From the IMG/VR virus record IMGVR_UViG_3300046010_010555, positions 1 through 64,000 of that record: a DNA stretch of 64,000 nucleotides; one strand, given 5' to 3'. The DNA comes from a virus. Within the stretch, counting starts at the first letter, position 1. Every line of letters begins with the position of its first letter. Position numbers and translations under genes: made by a program. Positions 15,679-43,206 of the stretch are shown here, in pieces. The notes beneath the pieces were generated by a model, which was not told where the DNA came from, searched no databases, and saw only the letters and a program-made list of their open reading frames with translations.

Positions 15679-15862
15679 ATGTAACTTTTTAAAACGACTC
15701 TCACCATAGTATGAAAAACACATACTTTTTATACACTCTCTTTTTTTTCTATCGGATAACTTAATTTTTGGTTACATAGGTTACAAAGACTACAATTAAT
15801 GAAAATCAATGACTTAGCTAAAAAAAATTTAGTTACAAAACTACAAATGTAGTACTACATTT
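15679..15862 (+). other. Left copy of inverted AT-rich element; candidate replication origin
   Basis: About 184 bp are homologous to the reverse complement of 43023-43206. The core CTATCGGATAACTTAATT and following bases (15749-15787, 39 bp) are identical in both copies, as are the CCATAGTATGAA segment, the CTTAGCTAAAAAAAATTTAG segment and the palindrome. GTTACA occurs, in either orientation, at 15680, 15771, 15780 and 15832, with more copies outside at 15938 and 15967. AT richness, iterated hexamers and position just upstream of the primase-helicase gene fit an origin with initiator sites. A repressor-binding region is the alternative. Confidence 0.6.
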
Positions 15863-15863
15863 G
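15844..15863. repeat. Perfect 20-bp palindrome
   Basis: CAAATGTAGTACTACATTTG reads the same on both strands. Its inner 18 bp recur at 43024-43041. It sits at the inner edge of the left inverted element, suggesting a site for a dimeric DNA-binding protein. Confidence 0.85.
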
Positions 15864-15933
15864 CCTGTTTTTGCCCTTTTTCACAAAAAATCGATTTTGC
15901 GATCCCGCTCCCACCCCCTGTTTTCACCCCTAA

Positions 15934-15976
15934 AAAAGTTACATATGGTAGACTTCGCGCCCCGAATGTAACTTTT
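15934..15976 (+). promoter_or_regulatory. Inverted repeat over the primase-helicase leader
   Basis: AAAAGTTACAT (15934-15944) and ATGTAACTTTT (15966-15976) form an 11-bp inverted repeat with a 21-bp spacer. The right arm ends immediately before the GGAG ribosome site of the gene at 15990. The same ATGTAACTTTT block occurs at 15679-15689, so this may be an operator for autoregulation by the same protein that binds the GTTACA elements, or an RNA hairpin next to the ribosome site. Confidence 0.5.
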
Positions 15977-15989
15977 GGAGATAAGAAAA

Positions 15990-18449
15990 ATGCGTGTTTT
16001 TTTCCTCGCTGCCAGCTGCCCACTGACTAAAAAATACACAGCTAAAGAAAAAATTCCCTACCCCAATGTCTCCTCTTTTACTTCACACGAGCACACTATC
16101 CTGTCCCTTGCTCAATTTGCCAACCTAATAGAAGACCATGCACGTCAAGGACACTGCCTTCTAAAAGGCACACTAGATCAACCCCTAAACAAAGAATCGC
16201 GGGCCGGACACACAAACAGCACCGCTCCTACTCAATGGGTCTGTTTTGATCTTGATGGCATGACAAGCGTAAAAACCATAGACGATTTCATGGCAAAAGC
16301 AGGACTGGGAGACATCTCTTACATTCTTCAATGGAGTGCGTCTTATGGCGTGTATGGTAATTTCACCCTACGAGCGCACATCTTCTTCCTTCTAGATTCA
16401 GTCGCTCATCCTCCAGCTCTAAAAATCTGGCTCAAACAGCTCAACCTGACAGTCTTCAAAGACGATCTTCGTTTAGCCCGTGGTAGCAAATCTCTAGTCT
16501 GGGGACTAGACATCACAACCTGCCAGAACGACAAACTACTCTTTATAACAGAGCCCGACTGCAAACCCCCGTCTCTAAACAAATTTCAAGGCGAACGTAT
16601 ACAGATAATCAAAAAACAAGCAGACGTATTTGCATTCAGCTCAGTTACGCTTCAGCCCATAAACGCAATACAGAAATTAGAAAGCGCTGCCCTCGACACT
16701 CTGCGTGAAGCAGCAGGAGAGCCCAAACTCAAAGCTTTTGAGCGAAAACTAAAGTCCACGTATCTAGCTGGAGACAAAGGCGAAAAAGTTGATTACATGC
16801 CCTCACCTAACGAGTGTTTTGTCTCTTCTAGCAAAACAGAAAGAGGATTCACGTATCTCAATCTCAATGGCGGTGACTCATGGGGCTACTACCATCCAGA
16901 AGACAACGCCAAATTCATCCACAATTTCAAAGGTGAACCCCTCTATCTCACAAAAGAGTTGGTCCCCGACTACTGGGATGACTTGCAGAAACAGAAAAAT
17001 CAAGCCAAAGCTCAAGCTAAACAAGCTCTGGTTCAAGCCACCAAACATAAAGTATTCATAGCCTTTCAAGAAAAAAATACCGCCTGCTATTACACAGCAA
17101 TCTATGACACGACTGGCGACACACTAGAATTATCAGAAGTCAGAACTGAAAAGCAGATCAACAATTTTCTAGTACATCACGGACAAGCTGAAGTTGAACA
17201 TCCTAGCCTCTGGGAGCTAACGTACGACCCTCAAGCACCTACTCTAGATTTGCTCAAAATGCAGGTCAACACCTACCAAGCGAGTACATATAAAAAGCAA
17301 GCTAAGCTCTTCGCCGCTCAGTACAACCCCAAAACAAACACAGCTCCTGCGGCCACGCCTACCATCGACTATCTACTTTCTCATGTACTCGGTAACAACC
17401 CTGCAGTCGTAGAGTATTTTAAAAATTGGCTGGCCTTCTGCTTTAAAAACATGACCTTTTCTGGCACAGGCTGGATTCTTCACGGTGTGCAGGGTACGGG
17501 CAAAGGCGCTCTATTCAACAACGTACTTACGCCTCTTTTTGGAGAGAGCAATGTCACGTGTAAAGGCACGCATGTTCTCGAAGAAACGTTTAACCATTAC
17601 CTAGAAAACAAAATAGTCTGCTTCATCGACGAAGTACAAGTCTCAGAATCTAGTAAGTCCAAGTCCATTATGGAAAAAATCAAAATGGACATGGTTAGCC
17701 CGCGTATCTCCATACGCCGAATGAGGACTAACCACTACGAGACTGCTAACTACACTAACTGGATTTTTGCTTCAAACATGCACGATCCTCTCATCCTAGA
17801 CAGAGGCGAACGACGATTCAACGTAGGACACAGACAAGAAACTCCTATAGCCCTTACAGACAAAGACTTCAAACAGATAGCCGCTGAGCTTCAAGACTTT
17901 GCCAACTATTTAGAAATCTATCAGGTCAACGAAGCCAAAGTTCGTAAACCGCTAGACAACGAAGCCAAGGAGTTGATGACGCGCAATTCCCAAAGCACAT
18001 ACGACGAAATCACTGACATCCTCAAATCAGGACAGCTACAGGATTTATGGGATTGGATACCCGACGAAGCTGAAATGATAGCTAAAAGACAAGGAGCCAT
18101 AGTAGATCCTCAGAAAGATTTGATCACTGACGCCTACATCGATTTGGTCGTTGATCTCATCAATTGCGGAGGTAGACATCTGTATGTTTCAGAACTTCGC
18201 ACGATATTTGCTTACTGTACAGGTAACCGCAAGTTAAGCGACAAAATGACTTTTCAAAAATCACTAGCTCATAAGCACTTGTTTGTAAAAAGCGTACGCA
18301 TCAACGGAACGGTGTGCAAAGGCTATTACGTAAACTGGACTACAACAGCTGAAGAATTTGAACAGTTGAAACAAGACGCTGTCTCTCGCGGATTACTCAA
18401 AATAGACAACATCACTCCTATTTCCTCCATACAGAAATTTTTACCATGA
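15990..18449 (+). CDS. Replicative primase-helicase (SF3/DUF5906-type)
   Basis: The ATG at 15990 with GGAG upstream gives 819 residues. The N-terminal third has FDLDGM (about residues 86-91) and a His-containing LRAHIFFLLDS segment, resembling a primase-polymerase active site. The C-terminal half has Walker A GVQGTGKGA (about 501-509), Walker B CFIDEVQ (about 543-549) and sensor WIFASN. These mark a superfamily-3 helicase of the DUF5906/D5 type. It would unwind and prime phage DNA. It follows the candidate origin directly. Its stop overlaps the start of a 21-residue peptide by ATGA. Confidence 0.85.
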   Translation: MRVFFLAASCPLTKKYTAKEKIPYPNVSSFTSHEHTILSLAQFANLIEDHARQGHCLLKGTLDQPLNKESRAGHTNSTAPTQWVCFDLDGMTSVKTIDDFMAKAGLGDISYILQWSASYGVYGNFTLRAHIFFLLDSVAHPPALKIWLKQLNLTVFKDDLRLARGSKSLVWGLDITTCQNDKLLFITEPDCKPPSLNKFQGERIQIIKKQADVFAFSSVTLQPINAIQKLESAALDTLREAAGEPKLKAFERKLKSTYLAGDKGEKVDYMPSPNECFVSSSKTERGFTYLNLNGGDSWGYYHPEDNAKFIHNFKGEPLYLTKELVPDYWDDLQKQKNQAKAQAKQALVQATKHKVFIAFQEKNTACYYTAIYDTTGDTLELSEVRTEKQINNFLVHHGQAEVEHPSLWELTYDPQAPTLDLLKMQVNTYQASTYKKQAKLFAAQYNPKTNTAPAATPTIDYLLSHVLGNNPAVVEYFKNWLAFCFKNMTFSGTGWILHGVQGTGKGALFNNVLTPLFGESNVTCKGTHVLEETFNHYLENKIVCFIDEVQVSESSKSKSIMEKIKMDMVSPRISIRRMRTNHYETANYTNWIFASNMHDPLILDRGERRFNVGHRQETPIALTDKDFKQIAAELQDFANYLEIYQVNEAKVRKPLDNEAKELMTRNSQSTYDEITDILKSGQLQDLWDWIPDEAEMIAKRQGAIVDPQKDLITDAYIDLVVDLINCGGRHLYVSELRTIFAYCTGNRKLSDKMTFQKSLAHKHLFVKSVRINGTVCKGYYVNWTTTAEEFEQLKQDAVSRGLLKIDNITPISSIQKFLP

Positions 18450-18511
18450 CTCTAGATCTTTTTGTGCTTGTGTTCGTACTTATCCTTTTGATGCACACGG
18501 TGGATCTATGA
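18446..18511 (+). CDS. 21-residue hydrophobic peptide
   Basis: The frame MTLDLFVLVFVLILLMHTVDL starts inside the primase-helicase stop (ATGA) and ends inside the start of the next gene (ATGA). It is almost entirely hydrophobic and would insert in the membrane. Double coupling to its neighbours argues it is translated, either for its own function or to pass ribosomes to the zinc-ribbon gene. Too short for family assignment. Confidence 0.45.
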   Translation: MTLDLFVLVFVLILLMHTVDL

Positions 18512-18660
18512 GATTTTATTTTATGACTCCCTCTAACGCTGACCATAAACCTCGACCGGGATTTCGATTTTGTGAATCCTGCAGAGCCTACAAACCGAAA
18601 GACAAAACAAAAGCAGTCAAGGGTTGGAAATGCTCAGACTGTCGCTTTGTACGTAAATAA
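18508..18660 (+). CDS. Small zinc-ribbon protein, 50 residues
   Basis: Start MRFYFMTPSNADHKPRPGF; four Cys in two CxxC pairs (FCESC near residue 23 and KCSDC near residue 43) predict one structural zinc site. The spacer and tail are basic, fitting nucleic-acid or RNA-polymerase binding. The start overlaps the stop of the hydrophobic peptide. Its position after the replication helicase suggests an early regulatory or replication accessory role, which is inference. Confidence 0.6.
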   Translation: MRFYFMTPSNADHKPRPGFRFCESCRAYKPKDKTKAVKGWKCSDCRFVRK

Positions 18661-18686
18661 TACAACTTACCCCTAGGAGATACACA

Positions 18687-18887
18687 ATGCGCTTTTTTTC
18701 TGGCCTTCTAAAGATCTTCAGCGACAACTTCATGGAGACTATGATTATAATACTGGCTTTCACACTGACTGCTTTTGTAATTTCCTTACCCCATGTCGTG
18801 ATTCTCAAAGAATCAATCTGGGAATGCACTCGTGCAGGTACACAAGGGCTAGACACGCAGTGTTTAGAATACAGGCACAAGCTCTAA
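18687..18887 (+). CDS. Small membrane protein, WxCT family copy 1
   Basis: A 66-residue protein with an amphipathic start (MRFFSGLLKIFSDNF), one membrane helix at about residues 17-38, and a polar C-terminus with WECTRAGTQGLDTQCLEY. The gene at 22387-22593 has the same plan and shares W-x-C-T, G-L-x-T-Q-C and E-Y in its tail, so the two are paralogues. If the N-terminus is inside, the two Cys lie in the periplasm and could form a disulfide. Function unknown. Confidence 0.65.
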   Translation: MRFFSGLLKIFSDNFMETMIIILAFTLTAFVISLPHVVILKESIWECTRAGTQGLDTQCLEYRHKL

Positions 18888-18901
18888 GTATTTTGCCTTT
18901 C

Positions 18902-18971
18902 GCTAAAACAGATAAACTTTAGTTTGGAACCCTCTGTTTTAGCAGCCTAAGCCGCTCGGGTGAGTAGCGGC
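18902..18971 (+). ncRNA. Structured intergenic segment with two hairpins
   Basis: GCTAAAACAGA (18902-18912) pairs perfectly with TCTGTTTTAGC (18933-18943), and GCCGCT (18951-18956) pairs with AGCGGC (18966-18971). Neither is followed by a T run, so they are poor terminators. A GTG start option for the next gene lies inside the second loop, which suggests a translational control element. Only base pairing supports this. Confidence 0.35.
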
Positions 18972-19001
18972 ACTTCAAACTTTAGCACTTCTAACAAAAA
19001 C

Positions 19002-19337
19002 ATGACTACCGATAACAGCGGCGTATCTGATGGCTATCACACGTTTGAAGAACTGTATAACCACAGACACTGCCTGTTTCTAGCTCTTATGCGGTCTCAC
19101 CCTAAATTGTCATGGCGTGCAGTCTGTCACGCAGACGGTACTCATTACAAAGGCTGGATAATTTGCGGCATGCACTTACCCACAGGCGATATTACCTATC
19201 ACCTGCCAGCCGTATTGTGGTCAAAGCTAAACGGATGCGGCATTACCACTTCAACTCGTGCGCCCGAATGGGACGGACACACTTCACAAGACGTAATAAC
19301 CAGACTCGACAAATGGTTAAGCTACAACATGCCCTAG
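19002..19337 (+). CDS. Conserved phage protein with DGYHTF / WDGHT motifs
   Basis: I choose the ATG at 19002 (111 residues); a GTG at 18960 would add 14 residues, and neither has a good ribosome site. The motifs DGYHTFEELYNHRHCLF, DGTHYKGWIICGMHLP, GDITYHLPAVLW and APEWDGHTSQDV mark a very common phage family that I recognise by pattern. Its function is unknown. Conserved His, Trp and Asp residues suggest an active or binding site. It opens the accessory gene stretch after the structured leader. Confidence 0.65.
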   Translation: MTTDNSGVSDGYHTFEELYNHRHCLFLALMRSHPKLSWRAVCHADGTHYKGWIICGMHLPTGDITYHLPAVLWSKLNGCGITTSTRAPEWDGHTSQDVITRLDKWLSYNMP

Positions 19338-19388
19338 AATTTGTAGACTAGTGCGCTTAACTCTCTGTCGTAACCTCGGAGATGACAG

Positions 19389-19661
19389 ATGAATAAAGCA
19401 GCACAACCAGTAGCTTACATAACAAACATACACGACGGTTTTTTCACGGCCGCATCTTTAGATCACAGTGTAATTCTAAAGTCCGGCACTGTTTTGTATC
19501 TTGAATCACCAGAACAAAAAATCAGAAGATGCGCAAAAGCACTACTTGAAGCGCTTGATACTAAACTCCCATTATTTCAAAGTCATTATGGGGCTGCAGA
19601 ACGATTCAACTTAAGACTGGCTTTGGACATAGACACAACGCCAAATGAAGAAAACATCTAA
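19389..19661 (+). CDS. Hypothetical protein, 90 residues
   Basis: Start MNKAAQPVAYITNIHDGFFT. The C-terminal half is helical (KIRRCAKALLEALDTKLPLF). The phrase QPVAYI followed by short beta segments resembles phage accessory proteins of the PVAWxxxxxG type, but I cannot name a family. GGAG lies upstream of the start. Nothing catalytic is visible. Confidence 0.5.
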   Translation: MNKAAQPVAYITNIHDGFFTAASLDHSVILKSGTVLYLESPEQKIRRCAKALLEALDTKLPLFQSHYGAAERFNLRLALDIDTTPNEENI

Positions 19662-19674
19662 GTAACTAAACTCT

Positions 19675-20151
19675 ATGAATATCTTTGTACTTGATACCGA
19701 TCCACTTATTGCCGCTCAATATCATTGCGATAAACATATCAGCAAAATGATTCTTGAAAGTGCCCAGATGCTGAGCACTGTGCTCAAAGGACCGTATAGA
19801 TCTACTCACGTACATCATCCGTGTACAAAATGGGTAGCGCAATCTCAAGCTAATGCCCTATGGCTGTGGCACTTAATGGTGCACTTAAACGGAGAATACA
19901 TCACACGATGGAATAAAGACGATAATCACTTGGCGTATAGCAAATGCGCCCACCTCATCTCATCTTTACATGTTTTGCCTAATACAGAGCTAACTCCATT
20001 TGCTTTGGCTATGCCAGAGCAATACAAAAACGACGATCCGGTACTAGCGTATCGCGCTTACTACCGATCAAAATCTTTTGCTGTATGGCGTAACGGCGCA
20101 CCAAGCTGGTGGCAAGACCACAAGTTGCGTCAAAATCCATCAACGCTTTAA
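19675..20151 (+). CDS. Conserved phage protein, CDKHISKMILESAQ family
   Basis: A 158-residue protein starting MNIFVLDTDPLIAAQYHCDK, followed by HISKMILESAQMLST. Later conserved segments are HPCTKWVAQSQANALWLW, AMPEQYK and AYRAYYRSKSFAVWRNGAP with a WW pair near the end. This is a widespread phage and prophage family with many conserved His, Cys and Trp residues, suggesting an enzyme or nucleic-acid binder. I know no proven function. It is a monocistronic-looking member of the accessory stretch. Confidence 0.65.
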   Translation: MNIFVLDTDPLIAAQYHCDKHISKMILESAQMLSTVLKGPYRSTHVHHPCTKWVAQSQANALWLWHLMVHLNGEYITRWNKDDNHLAYSKCAHLISSLHVLPNTELTPFALAMPEQYKNDDPVLAYRAYYRSKSFAVWRNGAPSWWQDHKLRQNPSTL

Positions 20152-20168
20152 CGAGAGAAAAAACAACT

Positions 20169-20468
20169 ATGGAAAATGTAATTATCAACGGTGTTGAGTA
20201 TGCGCCTGTAACCAGAAACACTGGGAACAGGGCTGTTGTGGTGGTCGACAGAGGATGGGTATTTGCGGGCGATGTTGAGCGCAGGGATGGGCGTATATAC
20301 CTGACCAACGCAGTATGGGTTTTTCGGTGGGAGTTGATTGGGTTTGATGGGGTAATTGCCAACCCAAAGTCAGACAAGGTGACCATCAAGCCAATGCCGA
20401 CGGGTGTGGATATTCCAGAAGGTTCAGAAATCTTTTCTGTGCCAGTCGAAGCTAATTGGGGCTTGTGA
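20169..20468 (+). CDS. DUF6948-like accessory protein
   Basis: The ATG at 20169 (MENVIINGVEYAPVTRNTG) gives 99 residues. The pattern VVVVDRGWVFAGDVERRDG then VFRWELIGFDGVI and a tail PEGSEIFSVPV matches a phage family I remember as DUF6948. It is beta-rich and of unknown function. Its stop (TGA) overlaps the start of the first Gly/Tyr-rich gene as TGATG, so the three genes 20169, 20468 and 20683 are translationally coupled. Confidence 0.6.
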   Translation: MENVIINGVEYAPVTRNTGNRAVVVVDRGWVFAGDVERRDGRIYLTNAVWVFRWELIGFDGVIANPKSDKVTIKPMPTGVDIPEGSEIFSVPVEANWGL

Positions 20469-20683
20469 TGTTTAAGCCAATCGGCTCCGGCTACAGCTTC
20501 GGCTACGGCGACGGATTAGGCTGCGGCTCCGGCTACAGCTTCGGCTACGGCGACGGATTAGGCTTCGGCTACGGCGACGGCGACGGCGACGGCTACGGAG
20601 ACGGCTTCGGCGACGGCGACGGCTACGGCGACGGCTACGGCTACGGCACGCCAAATCTTGCCACCAAACAACGGAGAAGGTGA
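20468..20683 (+). CDS. Gly/Tyr/Asp low-complexity protein, long copy
   Basis: A 71-residue protein starting MFKPIGSGYSFGYGDGLG. Nearly all of residues 6-60 is built of GYGDG, GFGDG and GSG units, and the end is basic (KQRRR). The DNA is a run of GGCTACGGCGACGG-like units. It resembles tyrosine-rich, Gly-rich disordered domains that phase-separate, but that is inference. Start and stop both overlap neighbours as TGATG. The next gene is a shorter copy with the same first six residues and a basic end, so unit number has probably changed by slippage or recombination. Confidence 0.6.
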   Translation: MFKPIGSGYSFGYGDGLGCGSGYSFGYGDGLGFGYGDGDGDGYGDGFGDGDGYGDGYGYGTPNLATKQRRR

Positions 20684-20787
20684 TGTTTAAGCCAATCGGC
20701 TCCGGCTTCGGCTACGGAGACGGCTCCGGCTCCGGCTACGAAGACGGCTACAACACACCAAAAATGAATATCAAACGCCGAAGGTAA
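20683..20787 (+). CDS. Gly/Tyr/Asp low-complexity protein, short copy
   Basis: A 34-residue protein starting MFKPIGSGFGYGDGSGSGY and ending NIKRRR. The first 25 bp or so of the gene repeat the start of the long copy exactly. The TGATG junction with the long copy implies coupled translation. The shared N-terminus and basic C-terminus argue for selection on both ends, with a variable Gly/Tyr/Asp middle. Function unknown. Confidence 0.55.
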   Translation: MFKPIGSGFGYGDGSGSGYEDGYNTPKMNIKRRR

Positions 20788-20838
20788 GATCGCATAGCCA
20801 GCCGCGTTAGCGCTGGCACTTTAATAAGGTAGGTAGAA

Positions 20839-21150
20839 ATGAACGATAGAGAACTATTAGAACTAGCGGCGAAAGCTGCGGAAATAAGTGCGGATTATTG
20901 GACGGTTGACGGTTGGAACCCCCTATATGACGATGGTGACGCTTTGTTTCTTGCGGTTAAGCTGGGGATAAACATATCTTTTCCCCCCTATATGAAGCAC
21001 GAACGCCCAGTTGTTCATGCCGGTAAGTATTGGGACAACAGCGATGATTGCTGGTATCCATTTGAAGAATTGCTAGACATAAACCCCTACGCCGCAACAC
21101 GCAGGGCCATCGTTAGAGCCGCTGCTGAAATTGGAAAAGGGATAAAGTGA
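20839..21150 (+). CDS. MNDREL-family phage protein, copy 1
   Basis: A 103-residue protein starting MNDRELLELAAKAAEISADY. It has WNPLYDDGDALFLAVKLGI in the middle and TRRAIVRAAAEIGKGIK at the end. The gene at 22590-22901 is a clear paralogue with the same start and end motifs. I recognise the family as common in phages and prophages of proteobacteria, without known function. Its stop overlaps the next start as GTGA, so it is coupled to the NinX-like gene. Confidence 0.7.
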   Translation: MNDRELLELAAKAAEISADYWTVDGWNPLYDDGDALFLAVKLGINISFPPYMKHERPVVHAGKYWDNSDDCWYPFEELLDINPYAATRRAIVRAAAEIGKGIK

Positions 21151-21548
21151 AAACCAAAACGTACACCCTAACCGGAAGCGCCCTTGATTGGGCAGTGGCT
21201 AAATGTGAAGGGGCCACAGATGCGTGGTGTTCTGATGCGCCGTTCTTTTGGGATGGTGCTCATCCCTGCATACGCATCGGTGGCCACGACGTGAACTACA
21301 GCCCCTCGACCGATTGGTCACTCGGCGGGCCTATCATTGAGCGAGAGGGAATAGAGGTGCTGTGCAATTTGTCCCTTGCACAGGCAAAAGCCTTCAAGCA
21401 GGCAAACCCTGATTGGTTTGCCTGCCGGAAGCAAAGAAGGTCTGACCACTTTCACGGCCTAACCCCGCTCATAGCAGCTATGCGCTGCTATGTGACTTCA
21501 AAACTTGGTACAGAAATAGATGTACCGGAGGAATTGGTAGACTTATGA
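21147..21548 (+). CDS. NinX/DUF2591-like protein
   Basis: A 133-residue protein with a GTG start (MKTKTYTLTGSALDWAVAKC) and YSPSTDWSLGGPIIEREGIE. The TGxALDWAVAKCEG opening and the SxDWxxGGPIIE segment are the hallmark of the phage DUF2591/NinX family. The family occurs in the nin regions and accessory regions of many phages. No biochemical role is established. It is coupled to both neighbours by overlapping start and stop codons. Confidence 0.75.
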   Translation: MKTKTYTLTGSALDWAVAKCEGATDAWCSDAPFFWDGAHPCIRIGGHDVNYSPSTDWSLGGPIIEREGIEVLCNLSLAQAKAFKQANPDWFACRKQRRSDHFHGLTPLIAAMRCYVTSKLGTEIDVPEELVDL

Positions 21549-22126
21549 ACAAGTTTAAAACATTCAAAAAAGTGTATGAGGAAGCCGTTGAAAGTATTCA
21601 TCGGTTCATTGACGACCCTTCTGATATGAATGAGCTTGCAGCTTGGTTAATGGATACTGATGCTAGCCCTTATTCTTATTTACAGGAAGGTTATGCGGGC
21701 ATGATGTCTACCGCCGAGGGTTGTGATGGTCTATTAGCAACAATACATCATGCTGTGTACGACGACGGCGATATAACGTTTGTTAAAGTAGATGATGCAC
21801 CTAGGATAGTATTTGCCCACAAGCACGACGATGACTTTAGAAAATTAGTTTTATCTGTTCAAGAGCAAGAAATAGAGAAACGTCTTATATTCGGCAAAAC
21901 TAGGCAATACGAGATAGAAGTGTTAAGCATTAAACCAAATGACTTTCCTAAAATTTATAACGCTTATCAACTAAAAGAACTTCAGAGATGCTTTTCTTGT
22001 GATGCAGGTCGTAACGGCATAGATTTCGCAGTTGAGCATTATAAGAAATATGCTTGTTTCAGTGAAGATTGGGTCAAGATATGTGCCGATGAAATTACCA
22101 AATGGGCTACTTTTTACAACGGGTAA
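21545..22126 (+). CDS. Hypothetical protein, 193 residues
   Basis: Start MNKFKTFKKVYEEAVESIHR, overlapping the preceding stop by ATGA. Mixed helix and strand, with acidic clusters (VYDDGDITFVKVDDAP) and a C-terminal Cys-containing segment. I see no known motif. It is one of the larger genes of the accessory stretch and its AT-richer codon use differs somewhat from the GC-richer genes just before it, so it may have been acquired separately. Confidence 0.5.
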   Translation: MNKFKTFKKVYEEAVESIHRFIDDPSDMNELAAWLMDTDASPYSYLQEGYAGMMSTAEGCDGLLATIHHAVYDDGDITFVKVDDAPRIVFAHKHDDDFRKLVLSVQEQEIEKRLIFGKTRQYEIEVLSIKPNDFPKIYNAYQLKELQRCFSCDAGRNGIDFAVEHYKKYACFSEDWVKICADEITKWATFYNG

Positions 22127-22134
22127 ACAGAAAA

Positions 22135-26608: not shown

Positions 26609-26821
26609 GTGATTTGCCTTTCACCCGCAATCGCTATGTCTATCATCAATCTTTTTGTAATTCCTTCAACCGGCGAATGGTATAAGCAGAACGAGATTCG
26701 CCATCAAGATCTCCCTGCTGAAAGTATGACTGTTGTAGTTCATGACTACTGGTCAGAAGACATGATAGACAGGCATGTTACTAAAATTCTCGAAGCTAAA
26801 AGAGGAAGTAATAATGGCTGA
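26609..26821 (+). CDS. Hypothetical protein, 70 residues
   Basis: I use the GTG at 26609, with AGGTG eight bases upstream; an ATG at 26636 is the alternative. The first part is hydrophobic (AIAMSIINLFVIP), the rest polar with HDYWSEDMIDRHVTKI. The family is not recognised. It overlaps the zinc-finger gene start by 8 bp, so the two are coupled. Confidence 0.45.
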   Translation: MICLSPAIAMSIINLFVIPSTGEWYKQNEIRHQDLPAESMTVVVHDYWSEDMIDRHVTKILEAKRGSNNG

Positions 26822-27041
26822 CGATGTAGATAGAACTAACGAACGAGAGTTTTCGCTGCAGCATCTTATGGAAGAATCTAGAAGATCTTCCTACAGCACT
26901 AGAAAGCGCGAGATTGTACCAACAGGCATATGCTACGAGTGCGAAGAACTTGTAGCCGAGGCTCGTTTATTTTGTGATACAGACTGTAGAGACATGTATG
27001 AAAAGAGAAAAAAAATCGCACTCATCAACAACACTTGGTGA
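26814..27041 (+). CDS. Small zinc-finger protein, 75 residues
   Basis: The ATG at 26814 (MADDVDRTNEREFSLQHLME) has AGAGG upstream. The C-terminal half has ICYECEELVAEARLFCDTDC followed by a basic helix, i.e. CxxC-x(10)-CxxxC, predicting one zinc. Such short fingers with FCxxxC-R are common in phages and resemble a minimal DksA/TraR- or DUF2116-type finger. A role in binding host polymerase or DNA is inference. It overlaps the next gene. Confidence 0.6.
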   Translation: MADDVDRTNEREFSLQHLMEESRRSSYSTRKREIVPTGICYECEELVAEARLFCDTDCRDMYEKRKKIALINNTW

Positions 27042-27668: not shown

Positions 27669-28649
27669 ATGAGACCTTCAGTCGCAGCTGACGCTATTAC
27701 CAAGTGCATTCAAGTCAAACAACCTCTTTTTCTATGGGGGCAACCCGGTGTCGGAAAATCAGCCGTTACAAAACAAGTGGCTCGAGATGCTAATCTTGAG
27801 CTTGTTGATCTTCGTTTGTCTCTGTTGGATTCTGTTGACCTTCGCGGTTTCCCGCATATGGTCGCTAATCGCATGCATTTTGCAGTTCCTGTTTTTCTGC
27901 CTGTCGATCCCGATAGTAGCGGTATTCTATTTCTTGACGAGATGAATGCAGCGCCCCCAGCCGTTCAATCTGCTGCGTATCAACTTGTACTTGACCGACG
28001 TATTGGCGAATACAAACTACCTGACAACTGGGCAATTATCGCTGCTGGCAATCGCGAAACTGATCAAGGCGTTACATACACAATGCCTGCGCCTCTAGCC
28101 AATCGATTTACGCATATTGATTTCGATCCCAACTTCGACGACTGGCGTACGTGGGCTTTGCAGAACGGCATCAAGCCAGAAATTGTTAACTTCATCAATT
28201 TCCGCCCCGGTTTGCTTAACGATTTTGATCCCGACAAGCGTGCATTTCCTACTCCGCGTTCGTGGGAATTCGTTAGCAAAATCACAGACAGCTCCGCGTC
28301 AATTGAAGTTGAACGTGGGCTGATCGCAGGCTCTATTGGCGAAGGCGCGGCTGCTGAGTTGGCAGGTTTCCTCAAAATCTACAGAAATCTGCCTAATCCT
28401 GACGCCGTGCTTCTCAATCCCAAAACAGCCGATGTCCCGACTGATCCAGCCACGCTGTATGCTTTATGCGGTGCCTTGTCTGTACGTGCTTCGGAAGCCA
28501 ACTTTGATCGCCTTGTTGAGTATTGCGGCCGCATGAAACCAGAATTTCAAGTTTTGTGTATTCGCGATTCTGTTACTCGAGCACGTGAGCTAGCACATAC
28601 TGCTGCATTCAGCACTTGGGCAATTCAAAACTCTAGCATATTGATTTAG
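27669..28649 (+). CDS. MoxR/CobS-type AAA+ ATPase
   Basis: A 326-residue protein with CTAGGAGA upstream of the ATG. Walker A is GQPGVGKS (residues 24-31), Walker B is ILFLDEMNAAP (about 84-94), and a sensor-type AAGNRE lies near residue 117. The order and the DEMNAA sequence are typical of the MoxR/CobS family. These form hexamers that remodel or insert metal into partners together with a VWA protein. The VWA partner here is at 31663, and a DUF3150-like protein lies between. What the phage module acts on is unknown. Confidence 0.85.
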   Translation: MRPSVAADAITKCIQVKQPLFLWGQPGVGKSAVTKQVARDANLELVDLRLSLLDSVDLRGFPHMVANRMHFAVPVFLPVDPDSSGILFLDEMNAAPPAVQSAAYQLVLDRRIGEYKLPDNWAIIAAGNRETDQGVTYTMPAPLANRFTHIDFDPNFDDWRTWALQNGIKPEIVNFINFRPGLLNDFDPDKRAFPTPRSWEFVSKITDSSASIEVERGLIAGSIGEGAAAELAGFLKIYRNLPNPDAVLLNPKTADVPTDPATLYALCGALSVRASEANFDRLVEYCGRMKPEFQVLCIRDSVTRARELAHTAAFSTWAIQNSSILI

Positions 28650-31662: not shown

Positions 31663-32814
31663 ATGAGTACAAAAATTACTGACAAGAAGACTGCAGACCA
31701 GATAACCAAAGCTATCGCCGCTATCGTTCTCGACGATCCGTTTTACGGCTACATGCTACTGCGTCAGGAAATAATCGAAGCTCCTAATTCAGGCACTGCT
31801 GCGACAAATGGCTTTCGAATCAGCTACGATCCTGAGTTTATGAAAAAGCTCTCTTTGGCCGAAATCAAAGGTGTGCTCAAACACGAAGTGATGCACATCG
31901 CTTCTATGCATCATTTACGTAGGCAAAATCGAGACCCTAAAAAATGGAATATAGCTGCCGACTATGTAATCAATGCTCTTTTAGTGGAAGAGGGAGTGAC
32001 TCTCCCACAAGGCGTATTGGCCGATGCAAAGTACAAAGATTTCTCTACCGAGCATGTTTACGAAATACTCCCAGATAATAAAGGCAATGGCGGCAACGAC
32101 GGCAGTAACGAAAGCGACGTAGGGTGGAACATCGGCGGTGTTGAAGACGCTCCCGGCATACAAGACCCTGCAACACGCGATCAGATAGAACAAGATACCA
32201 AAGTAGATGTTATCCAAGCTGCAAATGCAGCAAAACTTATGGGTAAATTACCTGCCCACATCGAGCGACTTGTAGATTCTATTCGAGAGTCCCGCATGCC
32301 ATGGCGACAAATCCTAGCGAGGTTTTTCCGTGCGACCGCAAAAGCTGATTACTCTTGGCTTCGGCCTAACCGTCGTTTTCTCGCTAGCGGATTGTATCTC
32401 CCTAGCTTGCATAGTGACTCTCTTGGCCCAGTCGTGGTCGCTGTGGATACTTCTGGTTCCGTAGGCGGCGAGGAGCTTGAGCAGTTCTTTGGCTGCATCA
32501 ACGCAATTCTTCGCCAAGCCAAACCCGAAGCTGTTCATGTTGTTTATTGCGACGCCGAGGTTCAGAACATACAAGTTTTTAGGGAGCGCGACTACCCAAT
32601 CAAGCTTAATTCGTTTAAGCCCAAAGGCGGTGGCGGTACCGATTTCAGACCTGTGTTCAAGTACGTAAAAGATAAACGGCTCAACCCCGAAGTGCTGCTG
32701 TATCTCACTGATATGCACGGTGCTTTTCCGTCCACTCCATCTAGATTTCCGACTATCTGGTGTGCGACGTCTAAAGAAATAGGCCCGTTTGGTAAGACTA
32801 TAGAAATCAAATGA
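31663..32814 (+). CDS. Zincin + VWA protein (DUF2201/CobT-like)
   Basis: A 383-residue protein. The N-terminal half has the zincin motif HEVMH (residues 74-78) within GVLKHEVMHIASMHHLRR. The C-terminal half is a von Willebrand factor A domain with MIDAS motif AVDTSGSVGG (about 264-273), GGGGTDF (about 322-328) and YLTDMHGAFP. This is the DUF2201 arrangement, where a VWA protein works with a MoxR/CobS ATPase. Together they resemble the CobS-CobT part of a cobalt chelatase, but no CobN-like subunit or cobalamin gene is in the window, so the substrate is unknown. Confidence 0.85.
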   Translation: MSTKITDKKTADQITKAIAAIVLDDPFYGYMLLRQEIIEAPNSGTAATNGFRISYDPEFMKKLSLAEIKGVLKHEVMHIASMHHLRRQNRDPKKWNIAADYVINALLVEEGVTLPQGVLADAKYKDFSTEHVYEILPDNKGNGGNDGSNESDVGWNIGGVEDAPGIQDPATRDQIEQDTKVDVIQAANAAKLMGKLPAHIERLVDSIRESRMPWRQILARFFRATAKADYSWLRPNRRFLASGLYLPSLHSDSLGPVVVAVDTSGSVGGEELEQFFGCINAILRQAKPEAVHVVYCDAEVQNIQVFRERDYPIKLNSFKPKGGGGTDFRPVFKYVKDKRLNPEVLLYLTDMHGAFPSTPSRFPTIWCATSKEIGPFGKTIEIK

Positions 32815-36846: not shown

Positions 36847-36851
36847 TCACA

Positions 36852-38762: not shown

Positions 38763-38798
38763 GAATACTTGTACACTTACTAATGAGAAAACAAGCTT

Positions 38799-39170
38799 AT
38801 GAGCACTACACAAGATTTGTTACAATCACTTTGTGACTTGCATCGAATAGAAAAAGAGCTTAACGCAAAGGTTAAAGCTACTAAGAAAAGCATTGCTCTC
38901 CTAGAGCTTGAGCTTATGAGAGCGATGGACAACGACGGTATTACAGAGACCGGCAACAAAGCTATCGGAAAAGTTGTGTTGTCAGAATCTGTCTATCCCC
39001 AAGTTGAAAACTGGGATGAATTTGGCGACTACATAATCACCAACAGATATATTCATCTTCTTGAACGTAGACCGGCTGTGCTGGCTTATCGAGAATTACT
39101 CAATCTAGGCCGCGTAGTTCCGGGTACACTACCGTTCACAAAACGTAAACTTTCATTCAAGGAATCCTAA
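38799..39170 (+). CDS. Hypothetical protein between polymerase and SSB-like gene
   Basis: A 123-residue protein. Residues about 10-45 are a coiled-coil helix (RIEKELNAKVKATKKSIALL). The C-terminal part has ESVYPQVENWDEFGDYI, LLERRPAVLAYRELL and a basic end PGTLPFTKRKLSF. I recognise this as a common companion of phage DNA polymerase and ssDNA-binding genes, without known function. Five bp separate it from the following gene. Confidence 0.6.
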   Translation: MSTTQDLLQSLCDLHRIEKELNAKVKATKKSIALLELELMRAMDNDGITETGNKAIGKVVLSESVYPQVENWDEFGDYIITNRYIHLLERRPAVLAYRELLNLGRVVPGTLPFTKRKLSFKES

Positions 39171-39174
39171 TACA

Positions 39175-39885
39175 ATGAGCACTGATTTAACGGCTATTTC
39201 TAACAACCTTCCCGACGACATTCGTGCTTCTCTTGCAGCGGAAATTGCTGCAGATATAGGTCGTATTGGCTCTACTGGCGGCAAAGACGTTATACGTATT
39301 ACTAACAGAAAGACGTTTGAGCTCCCCAACGGTGATTCTGTTAACGAGCTCAACGCAGTCATCGTAGATTTTGTGTATCGCAACAAATACTACCTAACTG
39401 CATACAATGCCAAAAAGATAGAGTCTCCCGCGTGCTTTGCTATCTCCGAATCAGCTTCGGGAATGGCTCCTTCGCCAAACTCACCGCTGCAGCAAGGCGA
39501 TATGTGCACGACGTGTCAGCAAAATCAATTCGGTTCTAGCCCTACCGGCGAAGGCAAAGCATGCAAAAACACTGTACTGCTAGCTGTTTTGCCAACTGAC
39601 GCAACAGACGATACTCCAATCTGGTTAATCGAATCATCTCCAACGGCAATCAAGCACTTTAACTCGTACGTTACTAAAGTAGCTCGTACTGCCAAAGTAC
39701 CGATTAACGCGGTCACTACAAAAATCTTCTTCGACCCTGATAGTACGTACGCATCTTTGCGTTTTGAAGCCGAAGCTATCAATCCAATCTACGAACTGAC
39801 AAGACAACGTCGTGACGAAGCCAACGATCGGCTCAAACAAGAGCCCGACGTGTCCGGATTCGAACTTCCGGCCTCAAAGCGGTAA
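39175..39885 (+). CDS. Zinc-ribbon protein, candidate ssDNA-binding protein
   Basis: A 236-residue protein. Core segments are RIGSTGGKDVIRITNRKTFE, VIVDFVYRNKYYLTAYN, then a CTTCQQNQFG..GKACKN Cys cluster (about residues 113-133), and HFNSYVTKVARTAKVPI. This phage family sits next to polymerase genes, has an OB-like first half, a zinc ribbon and an acidic/polar C-terminal tail. Those traits fit an ssDNA-binding or single-strand-annealing role, which is inference. A terminator follows. Confidence 0.6.
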   Translation: MSTDLTAISNNLPDDIRASLAAEIAADIGRIGSTGGKDVIRITNRKTFELPNGDSVNELNAVIVDFVYRNKYYLTAYNAKKIESPACFAISESASGMAPSPNSPLQQGDMCTTCQQNQFGSSPTGEGKACKNTVLLAVLPTDATDDTPIWLIESSPTAIKHFNSYVTKVARTAKVPINAVTTKIFFDPDSTYASLRFEAEAINPIYELTRQRRDEANDRLKQEPDVSGFELPASKR

Positions 39886-39911
39886 TCTTTTCCTTAGCAG
39901 TCGCACCCCTT

Positions 39912-39938
39912 GCCCCGATTCTCCGTCGGGGCTTTTTT
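39912..39938 (+). terminator. Intrinsic terminator
   Basis: GCCCCGA/TCGGGGC (39912-39918 with 39926-39932) with a 7-nt loop is followed by TTTTTT. It lies 26 bp after the stop of the SSB-like gene and ends the helicase-thyX-polymerase transcript. Confidence 0.92.
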
Positions 39939-39947
39939 ATTCTCCTT

Positions 39948-40160
39948 ATGTCCCCATCCACATCACGTAAGTTATTTCATGCTCTTTGGCTTGCTGACGT
40001 GCGCTTCTATTTAACAGGAGAGGAACATAAGCCGTATCTTCAAAAATTAGCTACTAAGCACATAGGAGAAACAAAAAGAGAACTTCTTCGTGTTGCTTCT
40101 CTGGGAAAGGATATCCCTAAATTTTTAGACATATTTTTCCAAGAGGTACTTGATGAATGA
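39948..40160 (+). CDS. Small helical protein, 70 residues
   Basis: Start MSPSTSRKLFHALWLADVRF just after the terminator, so a promoter would have to overlap it or transcription reads through. Mostly helical (KLATKHIGETKRELLRVASL). The stop overlaps the start of the exonuclease gene. No family recognised. Confidence 0.45.
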   Translation: MSPSTSRKLFHALWLADVRFYLTGEEHKPYLQKLATKHIGETKRELLRVASLGKDIPKFLDIFFQEVLDE

Positions 40161-40686
40161 CGTAATGGTCGATATAGAAACACTCAATACAGCTGCAAAC
40201 TCTATAGTGCTATCTGTCGCAGCAGTTCGATTTGATAGATCGAAACTCGATGTGTTCGGAGAGACTTTTCACGAGCACATAAGCATAGACTCAAACATAA
40301 AGTACGGCAGAACGTTCTCCGAATCTACTGTACTGTGGTGGTTTGAGCAGAGTCTCGAAGCACGAACAGCTATTTCACGAGCTTCTAGAATTCCGCTTGA
40401 AGAAGCGGTACTAAGGCTGTCGAAATTTATAAAGAGGGACGACAGAATATGGGGCAATGGAGCTGCTTTTGATAACGCTATCCTTAGCAGTATGTTCAAG
40501 GATGTAGGTATAGAACGTCCTTGGTTATTCAGAAACGACATGTGCTACAGGACTCTAAAAGAGCTGTATCCTAATGTTCAAAAGCCTGAATTCATCGGCG
40601 TTGCTCACGACGCTTTGGCTGACGCGTATTACCAAGCAGCCCACACCCAAAGAATATTTGCACGTAAAAATGAGCTCGAAGCCTGA
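40153..40686 (+). CDS. DEDD-type 3'-5' exonuclease
   Basis: The ATG at 40153 (MNDVMVDIETLNTAANSIVL) gives 177 residues. Exo I is MVDIETL (the D and E), Exo II lies in WGNGAAFDNAIL, and Exo III is VAHDALADAYYQA. This matches the Rv2179c-like/RNase T-like phage exonuclease family. It would degrade or trim single-stranded DNA or RNA; substrate not known. Its start overlaps the previous stop, and its end overlaps the VRR-NUC-like gene start. Confidence 0.85.
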   Translation: MNDVMVDIETLNTAANSIVLSVAAVRFDRSKLDVFGETFHEHISIDSNIKYGRTFSESTVLWWFEQSLEARTAISRASRIPLEEAVLRLSKFIKRDDRIWGNGAAFDNAILSSMFKDVGIERPWLFRNDMCYRTLKELYPNVQKPEFIGVAHDALADAYYQAAHTQRIFARKNELEA

Positions 40687-41077
40687 AACAACCTACTATC
40701 TTGCAGTAAATAAGCTTCTACCTAAGAGTCTTCACAAGGAAAAAATGCATAATCCGTACAGAGGAGGTACGGCTGACTTTTGGTATTCAGGAAACTTAGA
40801 TGATCTGTGGGTAGAGTACAAGTACATAGCAAAACTCCCAAAACGAGATGACAGCCCTTGCAAACTTGATTTGTCTCAGCTACAGCTGCAGTGGCTACGT
40901 GGTAGACACGATGAAGGTAGGAATGTAGTTGTTATTCTAGGAACTCCGTTAGGAAGTTGGGTATATACAGGACTTGAATGGGAGACAAAGCTAGTGACAA
41001 GACCTGACATTATTCAAACCGGATTGACTAAACAAAACGTGGCAAATTACATAAGGAGGAGAACTATGATTACATGA
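40670..41077 (+). CDS. VRR-NUC-like / PD-(D/E)XK small nuclease
   Basis: I choose the ATG at 40670 (MSSKPETTYYLAVNKLLPKS), overlapping the exonuclease end by 17 bp. The 135-residue product has GGTADFWYSG then DDLWVEYKYIAKLPKR, i.e. D and E-x-K of a PD-(D/E)XK active site, then LSQLQLQWLRGRHDEGRN. The size and order resemble VRR-NUC or endonuclease I-type resolvases that cut branched DNA. A role in resolving replication or packaging intermediates is inference. Confidence 0.65.
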   Translation: MSSKPETTYYLAVNKLLPKSLHKEKMHNPYRGGTADFWYSGNLDDLWVEYKYIAKLPKRDDSPCKLDLSQLQLQWLRGRHDEGRNVVVILGTPLGSWVYTGLEWETKLVTRPDIIQTGLTKQNVANYIRRRTMIT

Positions 41078-41187
41078 AACTAATCGGGTTGCTGGCTAAA
41101 GCTACACAAATAACGAGCCTTACATACAGGCTCGTTTTTACATCTGTGATGCTGTATCAGCTTATCAAGACAGCAAGTAAAAAATAA
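41074..41187 (+). CDS. 37-residue basic hydrophobic peptide overlapping a terminator
   Basis: The frame MKLIGLLAKATQITSLTYRL to LIKTASKK starts inside the previous stop (ATGA). It is amphipathic or membrane-associated. A perfect terminator-like hairpin (41113-41139) lies within it, so either the frame is real and read through, or it is fortuitous. Low certainty. Confidence 0.35.
   Translation: MKLIGLLAKATQITSLTYRLVFTSVMLYQLIKTASKK
41113..41139 (+). terminator. Intrinsic terminator
   Basis: ACGAGCCT/AGGCTCGT (41113-41120 with 41128-41135) with a 7-nt loop is followed by TTTT. It lies 36 bp after the nuclease stop, so it probably ends the 39948-41077 transcript. Confidence 0.8.
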
Positions 41188-41188
41188 C

Positions 41189-41214
41189 GGGAGCGTAGGC
41201 TCCCACTGGAGCCT
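41189..41214 (+). promoter_or_regulatory. Two mutually exclusive hairpins over a ribosome site
   Basis: GGGAGC (41189-41194) can pair with GCTCCC (41199-41204). Alternatively AGGCTCC (41197-41203 region) can pair with GGAGCCT (41208-41214), which contains the GGAG ribosome site of the GP88 gene starting at 41215. The two stems share bases, so only one can form. This has the form of a translation on/off switch. Confidence 0.45.
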
Positions 41215-41850
41215 ATGCGCCTTACTATCAAACAAGCCGAAAACATAGCTGGTAGCCTATCCGCCCCTAGTAAAATGCCCGGATATGGCTATGGATTACC
41301 CGCACTCACTTCATGCACCGTGGGGAGTATATTAGCGACAATACCAAACTCTGTCTGTTCGAAATGCTACGCATGTAAAGGCCGGTACATTATGCCGGTG
41401 ACACAAGCTGCGCAGCTAAAACGTCTACGCGCTGTCACAAACAATCCTTTGTGGGAGCAAGCCATGATTGCCCTTATTTCAAGGAAGAAAGAAAAATATT
41501 TTCGTTGGCATGATTCAGGTGATTTGCTCGGGCTTTGGCATCTAGAAAAAATCTGTCGTATTGCCGTGGCTCTACCGGATTTCAAATTCTGGCTTCCTAC
41601 TAACGAGCACAAAATAGTCAAAGACTACGTAGCTGCTAACCAGCTATTCCCACCTAATCTAGTCGTACGTATCAGCACACCGATGATTGATAGCAAGCCT
41701 ATCAACTCGTCGTTCTGCACTTCTTCTGTACACAAAGACAAACCCGCTAATGGGTATGAGTGTCAGGCCCCACTTCACAACAACACATGCGGTCCTTGCC
41801 GTGCGTGTTGGAATCCAAACATTAAGAACGTTAGCTATCACAGTCACTAG
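41215..41850 (+). CDS. GP88-family Cys-rich phage protein
   Basis: A 211-residue protein. Core: SCTVGSILATIPNSVCSKCY with ACKGRY next to it, then FRWHDSGDLLGLWHLEKI, FWLPTNEHKIV and a C-terminal CxxPxxNNTCGPCRAC cluster. These match the phage GP88 family (PF17338-like by memory). The Cys arrangement and SGDL motif recall radical-SAM-like Gp37/Gp68 proteins, so an iron-sulfur cluster is plausible, but no reaction is known. Its ribosome site lies in a competing hairpin. Confidence 0.7.
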   Translation: MRLTIKQAENIAGSLSAPSKMPGYGYGLPALTSCTVGSILATIPNSVCSKCYACKGRYIMPVTQAAQLKRLRAVTNNPLWEQAMIALISRKKEKYFRWHDSGDLLGLWHLEKICRIAVALPDFKFWLPTNEHKIVKDYVAANQLFPPNLVVRISTPMIDSKPINSSFCTSSVHKDKPANGYECQAPLHNNTCGPCRACWNPNIKNVSYHSH

Positions 41851-41861
41851 GATTACATACT

Positions 41862-42272
41862 ATGAGCACCTCCAAGAAACAGAAACATCCGCCCATTCTT
41901 CAAGCTTCTTTAGATAAAATGATATCGGATTGGAAAACCGAGTATACAAACATTGCTATAGATCTCTGCTGCAGACTTCAGTACATTGACGGAGGGCTTT
42001 TTAGATATTACGCAAAGAAACGAGGACTGGAAAACCCAACCACTCATAACCAATGGGTAGCTATGGTAAGCGTGTTACAGAAACTAGGTTATATAGCAAA
42101 GACAGACCTGTCTATCAAGTCACGTAGTCCATACAATCACATGAACGCAGCACCCGTGTGGGAAAGTAGATTATTCACCGGCACAAGAGAAGATTGGGAT
42201 GTTCATAAGTACGATAGCTATGTATCTCTCTATGTTGGTCCTTTAAGGAGACGAAAAAAATATGAATCCTAA
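41862..42272 (+). CDS. Hypothetical protein, possible winged helix
   Basis: A 136-residue protein. The phrase FRYYAKKRGLENPTTHNQWV, then MVSVLQKLGYIAKTD and NHMNAAPVWESRLF follow a pattern common in small phage proteins near nucleases and polymerases, with a winged-helix-like layout. Function unknown. It ends 11 bp inside the dCMP deaminase gene, whose ribosome site (AAGGAGACG) lies in its coding end. Confidence 0.55.
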   Translation: MSTSKKQKHPPILQASLDKMISDWKTEYTNIAIDLCCRLQYIDGGLFRYYAKKRGLENPTTHNQWVAMVSVLQKLGYIAKTDLSIKSRSPYNHMNAAPVWESRLFTGTREDWDVHKYDSYVSLYVGPLRRRKKYES

Positions 42273-42696
42273 ACATGTCAAATTTATCGCAATCGCAGAC
42301 GCAATCGCTCAACTTTCGAAGGATAGATCGACCAAAGTCGGAGCAATCGCCATTGGCCCGAATGGCGAGATCAGGGCTATGGGATATAACGGAATGCCCA
42401 GAGGCTGCGATGATACGGCTGAAGCCAGACATGTGCGTCCTGAGAAGTACCTATGGTTCGAACATGCTGAACGAAATCTCATTTATAACGCTGCCAGAGT
42501 GGGCGTTGGACTCGAAGGCTGCACTATTATCGTGTCGGGATTGTATCCGTGTATGGACTGTGCGAGAGCGATTGTCCAATCCGGGATTCGAGAAATCATT
42601 GCGCCACCTGTGCATACCGACAACAGATGGATGGATATGGCTATCAAGTCTTCTGAACTCTTCAAAGAATGTGGAGTGATCACACATGAATATTGA
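42262..42696 (+). CDS. dCMP deaminase
   Basis: A 144-residue protein. Zinc-binding and catalytic motifs are HAERN (about residues 67-71, the H and E) and PCMDCARAIV (about 95-104, the two Cys). MPRGCDDTAEARH and the IVSGLYPC segment also fit the dCMP deaminase family. It converts dCMP to dUMP, the substrate of the ThyX encoded at 36211. It overlaps both neighbours slightly. Confidence 0.93.
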   Translation: MNPKHVKFIAIADAIAQLSKDRSTKVGAIAIGPNGEIRAMGYNGMPRGCDDTAEARHVRPEKYLWFEHAERNLIYNAARVGVGLEGCTIIVSGLYPCMDCARAIVQSGIREIIAPPVHTDNRWMDMAIKSSELFKECGVITHEY

Positions 42697-42925
42697 AAAC
42701 AAAGCGACAAACTGGGTGCTCATATCGACAAGCAATTACAACGATGCCCTAGCTATCCCCATCGAACAGCTAGAGCAGTTCTTTAACACAGCTGTGTTCA
42801 TGGTAAAGGGCTACGAAAATGGTGAGGTCACATGGACACCCAAGGATTCATATCCAGCTATACAGTTCATGTCGAGTGAGCAGATGAAGGTCGCACAAAT
42901 GCGTGCAAAAATGACTACAAAGTAG
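42686..42925 (+). CDS. Hypothetical protein, last early gene
   Basis: A 79-residue protein starting MNIENKATNWVLISTSNYND, overlapping the deaminase end by 11 bp. Beta-alpha plan (VFMVKGYENGEVTWTPKDS), with a helix at the C-terminus. I recognise no family. It is the last gene on the plus strand and is followed by a terminator. Confidence 0.5.
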   Translation: MNIENKATNWVLISTSNYNDALAIPIEQLEQFFNTAVFMVKGYENGEVTWTPKDSYPAIQFMSSEQMKVAQMRAKMTTK

Positions 42926-42933
42926 AAAAAATG

Positions 42934-42958
42934 TACCCTCGATTTCGGGGGTATTTTT
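42934..42958 (+). terminator. Intrinsic terminator at the end of the early block
   Basis: TACCCTCG/CGGGGGTA (one G-T pair) with an ATTT loop is followed by TTTTT. It lies nine bases after the last plus-strand gene. The interval 42959-43022 shows no gene. Confidence 0.78.
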
Positions 42959-43022
42959 GGTTACACCCGTGCCTCGTAGCCCCTTCCTATGCCTAACCCT
43001 ACGGAACCCCACACATTTTGGC

Positions 43023-43206
43023 GAAATGTAGTACTACATTTAGTGTTTTGTAACTAAATTTTTTTTAGCTAAGTTTTTGATTTCTCTCTTTTTTGTATTT
43101 TGTAACCTATGTAACCAAAAATTAAGTTATCCGATAGAAAAAAGAGAGGGTATATAAAAAACGTAAAATTCATACTATGGTGGAAAGCGGCTTGAAAAAG
43201 TTACAC
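43023..43206 (-). other. Right copy of the inverted AT-rich element
   Basis: Reverse complement of the left element at 15679-15862 with small differences. It holds the identical 39-bp core, the CTTAGCTAAAAAAAATTTAG segment, GTTACA copies and the 18-bp palindrome AAATGTAGTACTACATTT (43024-43041). Here it fills the convergent gap between the early block and the 2,145-residue gene, and its outer edge overlaps that gene's stop codon. It could be a second origin or terminus, a binding array, or a site of homologous recombination with the left copy. Confidence 0.6.

Follow-up and report, generated by a model that had tools for sequence, protein, structure and literature searches.

We analysed a window of 64,000 nucleotides (positions 1 to 64,000 of the 69,335-bp IMG/VR virus record IMGVR_UViG_3300046010_010555, which is classed as linear and may be incomplete) that carries two copies of an AT-rich element of about 184 bp. 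Copy 1 precedes the gene of a primase/SF3-helicase, and copy 2 lies immediately behind the gene of a giant virion protein. From their sequences, these two copies are probably a matched pair of replication-origin elements, each made of initiator-binding iterons around an AT-rich unwinding region, and the primase/SF3-helicase encoded beside copy 1 is the likely iteron-binding protein. The evidence observed at the sequence level comprises the pair itself, its iterons, its AT-richness, the matching of copies within each genome, their conserved position, an IHF consensus and a link to phage NrS-1.

A first-pass annotation of the window had described two inverted, inward-facing repeats sharing a 39-bp identical core, GTTACA copies, a conserved segment and an 18-bp palindrome, and all of these sequence features were recovered. 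Comparison of the window with itself by blastn aligned 15680-15862 with 43205-43024 at 84.4% identity over 186 columns (E = 5.8e-48) and returned no further significant long inverted repeat, the next inverted match having an E-value of 0.02. The core, CTATCGGATAACTTAATTTTTGGTTACATAGGTTACAAA, is exact in both copies and found nowhere else in the record, and the segment CCATAGTATGAA is present in both. The 14-bp centre of the palindrome AAATGTAGTACTACATTT was found only within the two copies, even at two mismatches; the palindrome was not seen in the relatives' elements examined. The separation of the arms, annotated as 27.5 kb, is corrected to 27.2-27.3 kb. Over the whole window GTTACA is not enriched (29 occurrences, 30 expected). 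It is clustered at the elements, with six iterons in 293 bp at copy 1 and five in 246 bp at copy 2, whereas no 300-bp stretch held more than four in 300 block shuffles. The iterons occur in both orientations, in direct and inverted order, around the AT-rich centre of the elements.

Relatives were collected through a primase alignment search of viral contigs, which gave 25 loci from which 19 records were retrieved and used, while KPP25 and phiA008 were taken from a phage collection. Most relatives are metagenomic records, several of them fragmentary, and most of their primases are about 35-38% identical to that of this phage. Genes were called in this analysis and all intergenic gaps were compared pairwise within each genome. 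Other searches contributed little: DNA similarity to the element yielded nothing useful in annotated phages, an exact 23-mer pattern had no match in viral contigs, an exact 15-mer pattern had 57 scattered matches there, and the DNA polymerase used as bait recovered no relative.

A pair was found in twelve genomes, namely this phage, KPP25, seven IMG/VR relatives and three prophages from a prediction test described below; these counts ignore kinship, G001/G012 and G003/G006/G011 being close groups. In this phage, KPP25, G003, G004, G006, G010, G011 and G012, the best intergenic pair consisted of the AT-rich elements, at 58-171 bits. The pair of G001 is weak on its own (38 bits against 41 for the control), and both of its copies have orthologues in the closely related G012 (101 and 112 bits). 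The pairs are inverted in this phage, G003, G004, G010 and G011 and direct in KPP25, G006, G012 and G001, which with the prophages makes six inverted and six direct, so that the mirror arrangement emphasised by the first-pass annotation is not a conserved feature. Both copies rank first or second among the AT-rich valleys in eight of the nine paired phage genomes; here copy 2 ranks first and copy 1 fourth.

The positions of the copies are more constant than their orientation. Copy 2 directly follows the homologous giant virion gene in 8/9 phages, G004 being the exception, and in 11/12 genomes when prophages are included. Copy 1 is directly ahead of the primase gene in 7/9 phages (10/12 with prophages), and it lies elsewhere in the early block, away from this gene, in KPP25 and G004. 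The gene preceding copy 1 encodes a helical protein that is homologous among six genomes (G001, G003, G004, G006, G010 and G012). Copy 2 is found where the early and late blocks converge in this phage, G001, G010 and G012, at a site a few genes within the late block in KPP25, G003, G006 and G011, and at a site elsewhere in the late block in G004. In this genome its boundary position simply follows from its adjacency to the 3' end of the giant late gene (stop codon 43201). The earlier claim that the elements bracket the whole early block holds for the first four genomes, only because there are no small late genes beyond the giant gene, and does not extend to the other five.

The iteron words differ from phage to phage (GTTACA here, GTTACGA in KPP25, CCTAGCAA in G004, TTGGAAG-type in G001, G010 and G012, CAGAACA in the prophages G021 and G022) and agree between both copies of each genome. 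The copies of distant phages match only their own genome partner, and in close phages the orthologous copies match as well, indicating that the pair is old. Such matching within each genome is expected if one protein must bind both copies. The IHF consensus WATCAANNNNTTR was found in 7 of 24 elements, against 0.28 in shuffles (shuffle maximum 3), and AAATCAAnnACTTAG keeps its offset in this phage (both copies), G001, G012, G010 and G022, despite their differing iteron words.

Relatives of this phage in bacterial genomes, mostly Proteobacteria, provided a prediction test. After retrieval of the regions and before their inspection, we fixed the prediction that prophages would have an element ahead of the primase gene and another following the giant gene. 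This was found in three of the five prophages with both anchor genes: G021 from Herminiimonas (pair at 41 bits, reversed control at 18, direct), G022 from a Janthinobacterium metagenome-assembled genome (101 against 23 bits, direct) and G024 from a Proteobacteria metagenome-assembled genome (97 against 23 bits, inverted, copy 2 about 0.5 kb behind the giant gene). In each of them the primase gene is preceded by copy 1, the giant gene is followed by copy 2, and the two elements are the top two AT-rich valleys of 60 kb. The prophage G023, which is without the giant gene, has a single element, located before the primase gene.

The candidate initiator connects these elements to phage NrS-1. The helicase of the 819-residue protein matches the C-terminal region of the NrS-1 primase by sequence (6k9c/6k9e, E = 3e-21). 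Its predicted structure (pLDDT 82, pTM 0.46) has this same region as best fold match (E = 5e-26), followed by poxvirus D5/E5 and the SaPI/SCCmec primase-helicases. Residues D87, D89 and H130 are invariant in an alignment of 16 primase sequences and fit the motifs of AEP primases, from which we infer in part that the N-terminal region is AEP-like. The NCBIfam model of the P4-family primase C-terminus scored below its cut-off (36 against 108.7 bits). The last 100 residues are modelled as helices and a beta-hairpin in winged-helix order.

The motif at which the NrS-1 PrimPol initiates DNA de novo has been experimentally defined as TTTGGTTA (PMC8718748), and its initiation sites, of which two were counted, have been proposed as origin (PMC7102993). 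In the NrS-1 genome we found a single exact TTTGGTTA (17198), compared to those two sites. All 11 of 11 GTTACACT words of that genome lie in 17062-17377, just behind the primase gene, and the sole exact TTTGGTTA is within this array, which suggests that the published initiation motif lies inside an iteron origin. The array (L092 17055-17456) overlaps NRS1_29, an annotated gene that is possibly an origin region annotated in error. In our window TTTGGTTA occurs six times, against 2.1 expected, and TTTGGTTACA is found in the identical core of both copies and once more beside copy 2. The chance of finding TTTGGTTA in one element is about 0.006, a rough estimate from the window rate, and the two copies are not independent.

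From these features we infer protein binding, melting, origin activity and a division of labour between the copies. The primase/SF3-helicase would bind the iterons (here GTTACA), with IHF introducing a bend at the conserved WATCAANNNNTTR site; the AT-rich tract would melt, the SF3 hexamer would load, and the PrimPol domain would initiate synthesis de novo near TTTGGTTA. In this scheme the main origin would be copy 1. Copy 2 would act either as another origin or as a barrier to forks, formed by bound initiator, that aids the transition from theta to concatemer replication, a role proposed for oriR of SPP1.

The first-pass annotation had listed paired origins, arrays for one initiator, and recombination sites that flip the early block as possible readings. 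Paired origins and initiator arrays agree with what we observed, as iterons flank the AT-richest DNA, copy 1 is mostly beside the primase-helicase gene, and twelve genomes share the pair with matched words, IHF sites and the NrS-1 motif. A flip of the early block does not. Long inverted repeats could in principle allow inversion, some relatives encode a tyrosine integrase, and IHF-type sites are also found at attP; however, 6/12 pairs are direct repeats, the resolvase/invertase (serine recombinase) family was not found in the eight genomes searched, and phage integrase (tyrosine recombinase) was not found in this record, G004 or G011. In addition, copy 2 is about 3 kb or more from the integrase in the relatives measured (G001, G003, G010). 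The freely varying orientation of copy 2 argues against an invertible segment and for an orientation-independent role, and we regard recombination or attachment sites as very improbable. The high likeness of the copies in this genome would also result from a recent, functionless duplication by recombination, a scenario with next to no credibility given that pairs occupy conserved places in twelve genomes and that related phages share orthologous copies. A parS/ParB partition site was also considered and dismissed, PF02195 being absent from eight phage records.

Two further explanations were weighed. A phage repressor or activator that recognises these iterons at either end of the early block could control early and late transcription without any role in replication. 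The layout of this genome lends itself to such operator arrays: transcription converges at copy 2, copy 1 lies within the early block close to the divergent junction, and two further iterons are just ahead of the primase start codon. However, neither copy contains a sigma-70-like promoter, copy 2 follows the ends of convergent or co-oriented genes and lacks, in the orientation of copy 1, an adjacent gene start, and its orientation is freely variable. The AT minimum, the IHF consensus and the NrS-1 initiation motif are moreover better explained by an origin, and a purely regulatory function is unlikely. Regulation and initiation may both be partly true, because an iteron initiator could repress its own gene too; the GTTACA pair ahead of the primase gene is a possible autoregulation site. 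Searches for a T7-type RNA polymerase gave no match here, yet none in control genomes either, and RNA families and tRNAs had no match. The other explanation is a sub-case of the paired origin elements, in which copy 1 is the sole origin and copy 2 serves handcuffing, copy control or fork arrest without initiating, like crr of P4 or oriR of SPP1. Its free orientation fits a protein-bound landmark, and gp38 on the late oriR of SPP1 has been proposed to stall the fork and trigger theta-to-sigma switching (PMC6316719, PMC3485210). On the other hand, none of the recognisable origin features is missing from copy 2, the 39-bp core with TTTGGTTA among them, and no other site in the genome is as AT-rich; a site that served for binding alone would have no need of this. 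We retain this sub-case as a tentative possibility only.

Several results weigh against paired origin elements. A second copy was not detected in the near-complete G005, G009 and phiA008, which partly matches the refuting result named by the first-pass annotation (related genomes with only one copy), nor in the partial record G013; G005, G009 and G013 have one iteron array each. A second GTTAC cluster in G005 (20.9 kb) was dismissed as coding repeats. The primase gene does not adjoin an element in KPP25, G004 and G005. Among the prophages the prediction failed in G026 and was marginal in G029 (34 against 21 bits), both of which have more distant primases (29-30%). The IHF consensus is limited to part of the family, and TTTGGTTA is absent from the elements of other phages and is therefore not a family trait. 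Many top fold matches of the C-terminal domain of the initiator are winged-helix DNA-binding proteins, none of them significant (best PDB E = 0.31). Finally, GC skew, including GC3 skew along the genome, gave no clear two-origin signal.

The features of the window are collected in the following table.

Features of the two elements and their neighbourhood (window positions)
Feature	Position	Strand	Remark
Early gene, 261 residues, left of copy 1	14694..15479	+	Occupies, by position only, the place of a mutually homologous family in several relatives
Copy 1	15679..15862	+	Intergenic, AT-rich; minimum 21% GC per 80 bp, among the window's four AT-richest valleys
GTTACA iteron, inverted, copy 1 outer edge	15680..15685	-	
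39-bp identical core, copy 1	15749..15787	+	Holds TTTGGTTA and two tandem GTTACA iterons 9 bp apart
TTTGGTTA, copy 1	15767..15774	+	Identical to the NrS-1 PrimPol de novo initiation motif
Tandem GTTACA iterons (15771, 15780), copy 1	15771..15785	+	
IHF-consensus site AATCAATGACTTA (consensus WATCAANNNNTTR), copy 1	15804..15816	+	Offset kept in several relatives
GTTACA iteron, copy 1	15832..15837	+	
18-bp palindrome AAATGTAGTACTACATTT, copy 1	15845..15862	.	
Inverted GTTACA pair (15938 +, 15967 -)	15938..15972	.	Directly ahead of primase start codon
Putative initiator gene, 819 residues	15990..18449	+	AEP/PrimPol-like N-terminal motifs, SF3-type DUF5906 helicase, C-terminal domain of winged-helix-like topology
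Terminator-like hairpin, early operon end	42933..42954	+	Directly ahead of copy 2
Additional TTTGGTTA flanking copy 2	42956..42963	+	Overlaps GTTACA iteron
Copy 2	43023..43206	-	Between early operon end and giant late gene stop codon; 20% GC, the window's AT-richest 80-bp valley
18-bp palindrome AAATGTAGTACTACATTT, copy 2	43024..43041	.	
GTTACA iteron, copy 2	43049..43054	-	
IHF-consensus site AATCAAAAACTTA, copy 2	43070..43082	-	
39-bp identical core, copy 2	43099..43137	-	
Tandem GTTACA iterons, copy 2	43101..43115	-	
TTTGGTTA, copy 2	43112..43119	-	
GTTACA iteron, copy 2 outer edge	43200..43205	+	Overlaps giant gene stop codon
Giant virion protein gene, 2145 residues, phrog_30152	43201..49638	-	Conserved neighbour of copy 2; stop codon at 43201

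The other early genes include those of DNA polymerase A, a Snf2-like helicase, a PD-(D/E)XK nuclease, ThyX and a dCMP deaminase. An AAA ATPase gene (27669-28649) and a DUF2201 metallopeptidase/VWA-like gene (31663-32814), assigned to PHROGs 1297 and 1314, form a MoxR/VWA-like pair. Tandem GGCTACGGCGACGG-type repeats at 20465-20752 in the early block probably encode a glycine-rich stretch, and 18-bp tandem repeats (CTTAGTCTTGGGCGTAGT) at 12120-12231 lie within the terminase large subunit gene, at its start. In L008, the record closes with long GTAGGCGTTACCGGCTTAACAGGC-type repeats (8940-9330), which probably mark an assembly stop point. Among the relatives, tandem copies of an iteron-bearing unit adjoin copy 1 of KPP25 (KPP25 26618-26833), and the primase gene of G011 (L029 770-3085) has one in-frame TAG near codon 164, due to a sequencing error, a split gene or recoding. 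A tyrosine integrase is encoded close to the end of the early block in G001, G003, G006, G010 and G012, so that part of the family is probably temperate, and related prophages occur in several Proteobacteria.

Little is known of where replication starts in phages that use PrimPol/SF3 replication proteins; one study recognised no iteron origin in a replicon of this type and instead proposed a stem-loop as the assembly site of AEP-SF3-winged-helix proteins (PMC4234260). We advance, as a proposal that stands in the balance, that the PrimPol/SF3 phage family, temperate members included, replicates from two origins at fixed gene neighbours roughly across the genome, with the iteron word swapped in both copies in concert per lineage while the site, the AT core and partly the IHF site are kept; such a co-evolving initiator/two-origin system would not have been described before. 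A simple rule, by which AT-rich iteron valleys lie ahead of the primase gene and after the giant virion gene, predicts both sites in distant phages and prophages and across iteron words. Origin mapping, initiator specificity and the question of origin or fork barrier at the late site become directly testable, also in the cultured Pseudomonas phage KPP25.

The closest described working model is the oriL/oriR pair of SPP1, in which gp38 binds at both sites to direct repeats that adjoin an AT-rich unwinding element (PMC6316719, PMC3485210). Both systems have two distant sites per genome with direct repeats and AT-rich DNA, one tied to the initiator gene and one non-coding in the late region. They differ in that the initiator, the helicase loader and the DnaB-type helicase of SPP1 are separate, whereas the candidate initiator here is a fused PrimPol-like/SF3 protein; the two copies here align at 84% identity over 186 columns, and the sites are spaced about 25-40 kb, compared to 12-13 kb in SPP1. 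Satellite phage P4 has two cis sites, ori and crr. It resembles the present system in having one primase-helicase-origin-binding protein act on repeats (alpha on the origin repeats, PMC4234260), but alpha has a bacterial-type Toprim primase while the primase here has AEP-like motifs. In SaPI and SCCmec elements, iterons are recognised by the helicase C-terminal domain, and SCCmec priming sites overlap iterons (PMC7581432). SaPI Rep and SCCmec Cch2 provide examples of a helicase that recognises iterons adjoining its own gene, in staphylococcal elements with a single origin beside the helicase gene (PMC7581432). NrS-1 (AB746912; PMC8718748, PMC7102993) has a homologous primase-helicase, and next to the gene of this protein lies an iteron array containing GTTACACT and TTTGGTTA. 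Like an NrS-1-type PrimPol replicon, this phage probably has an AEP domain fused to a DUF5906/SF3 helicase. Its array is single, behind the primase gene and overlapping NRS1_29, whereas this phage has TTTGGTTA inside the iteron arrays of both copies.

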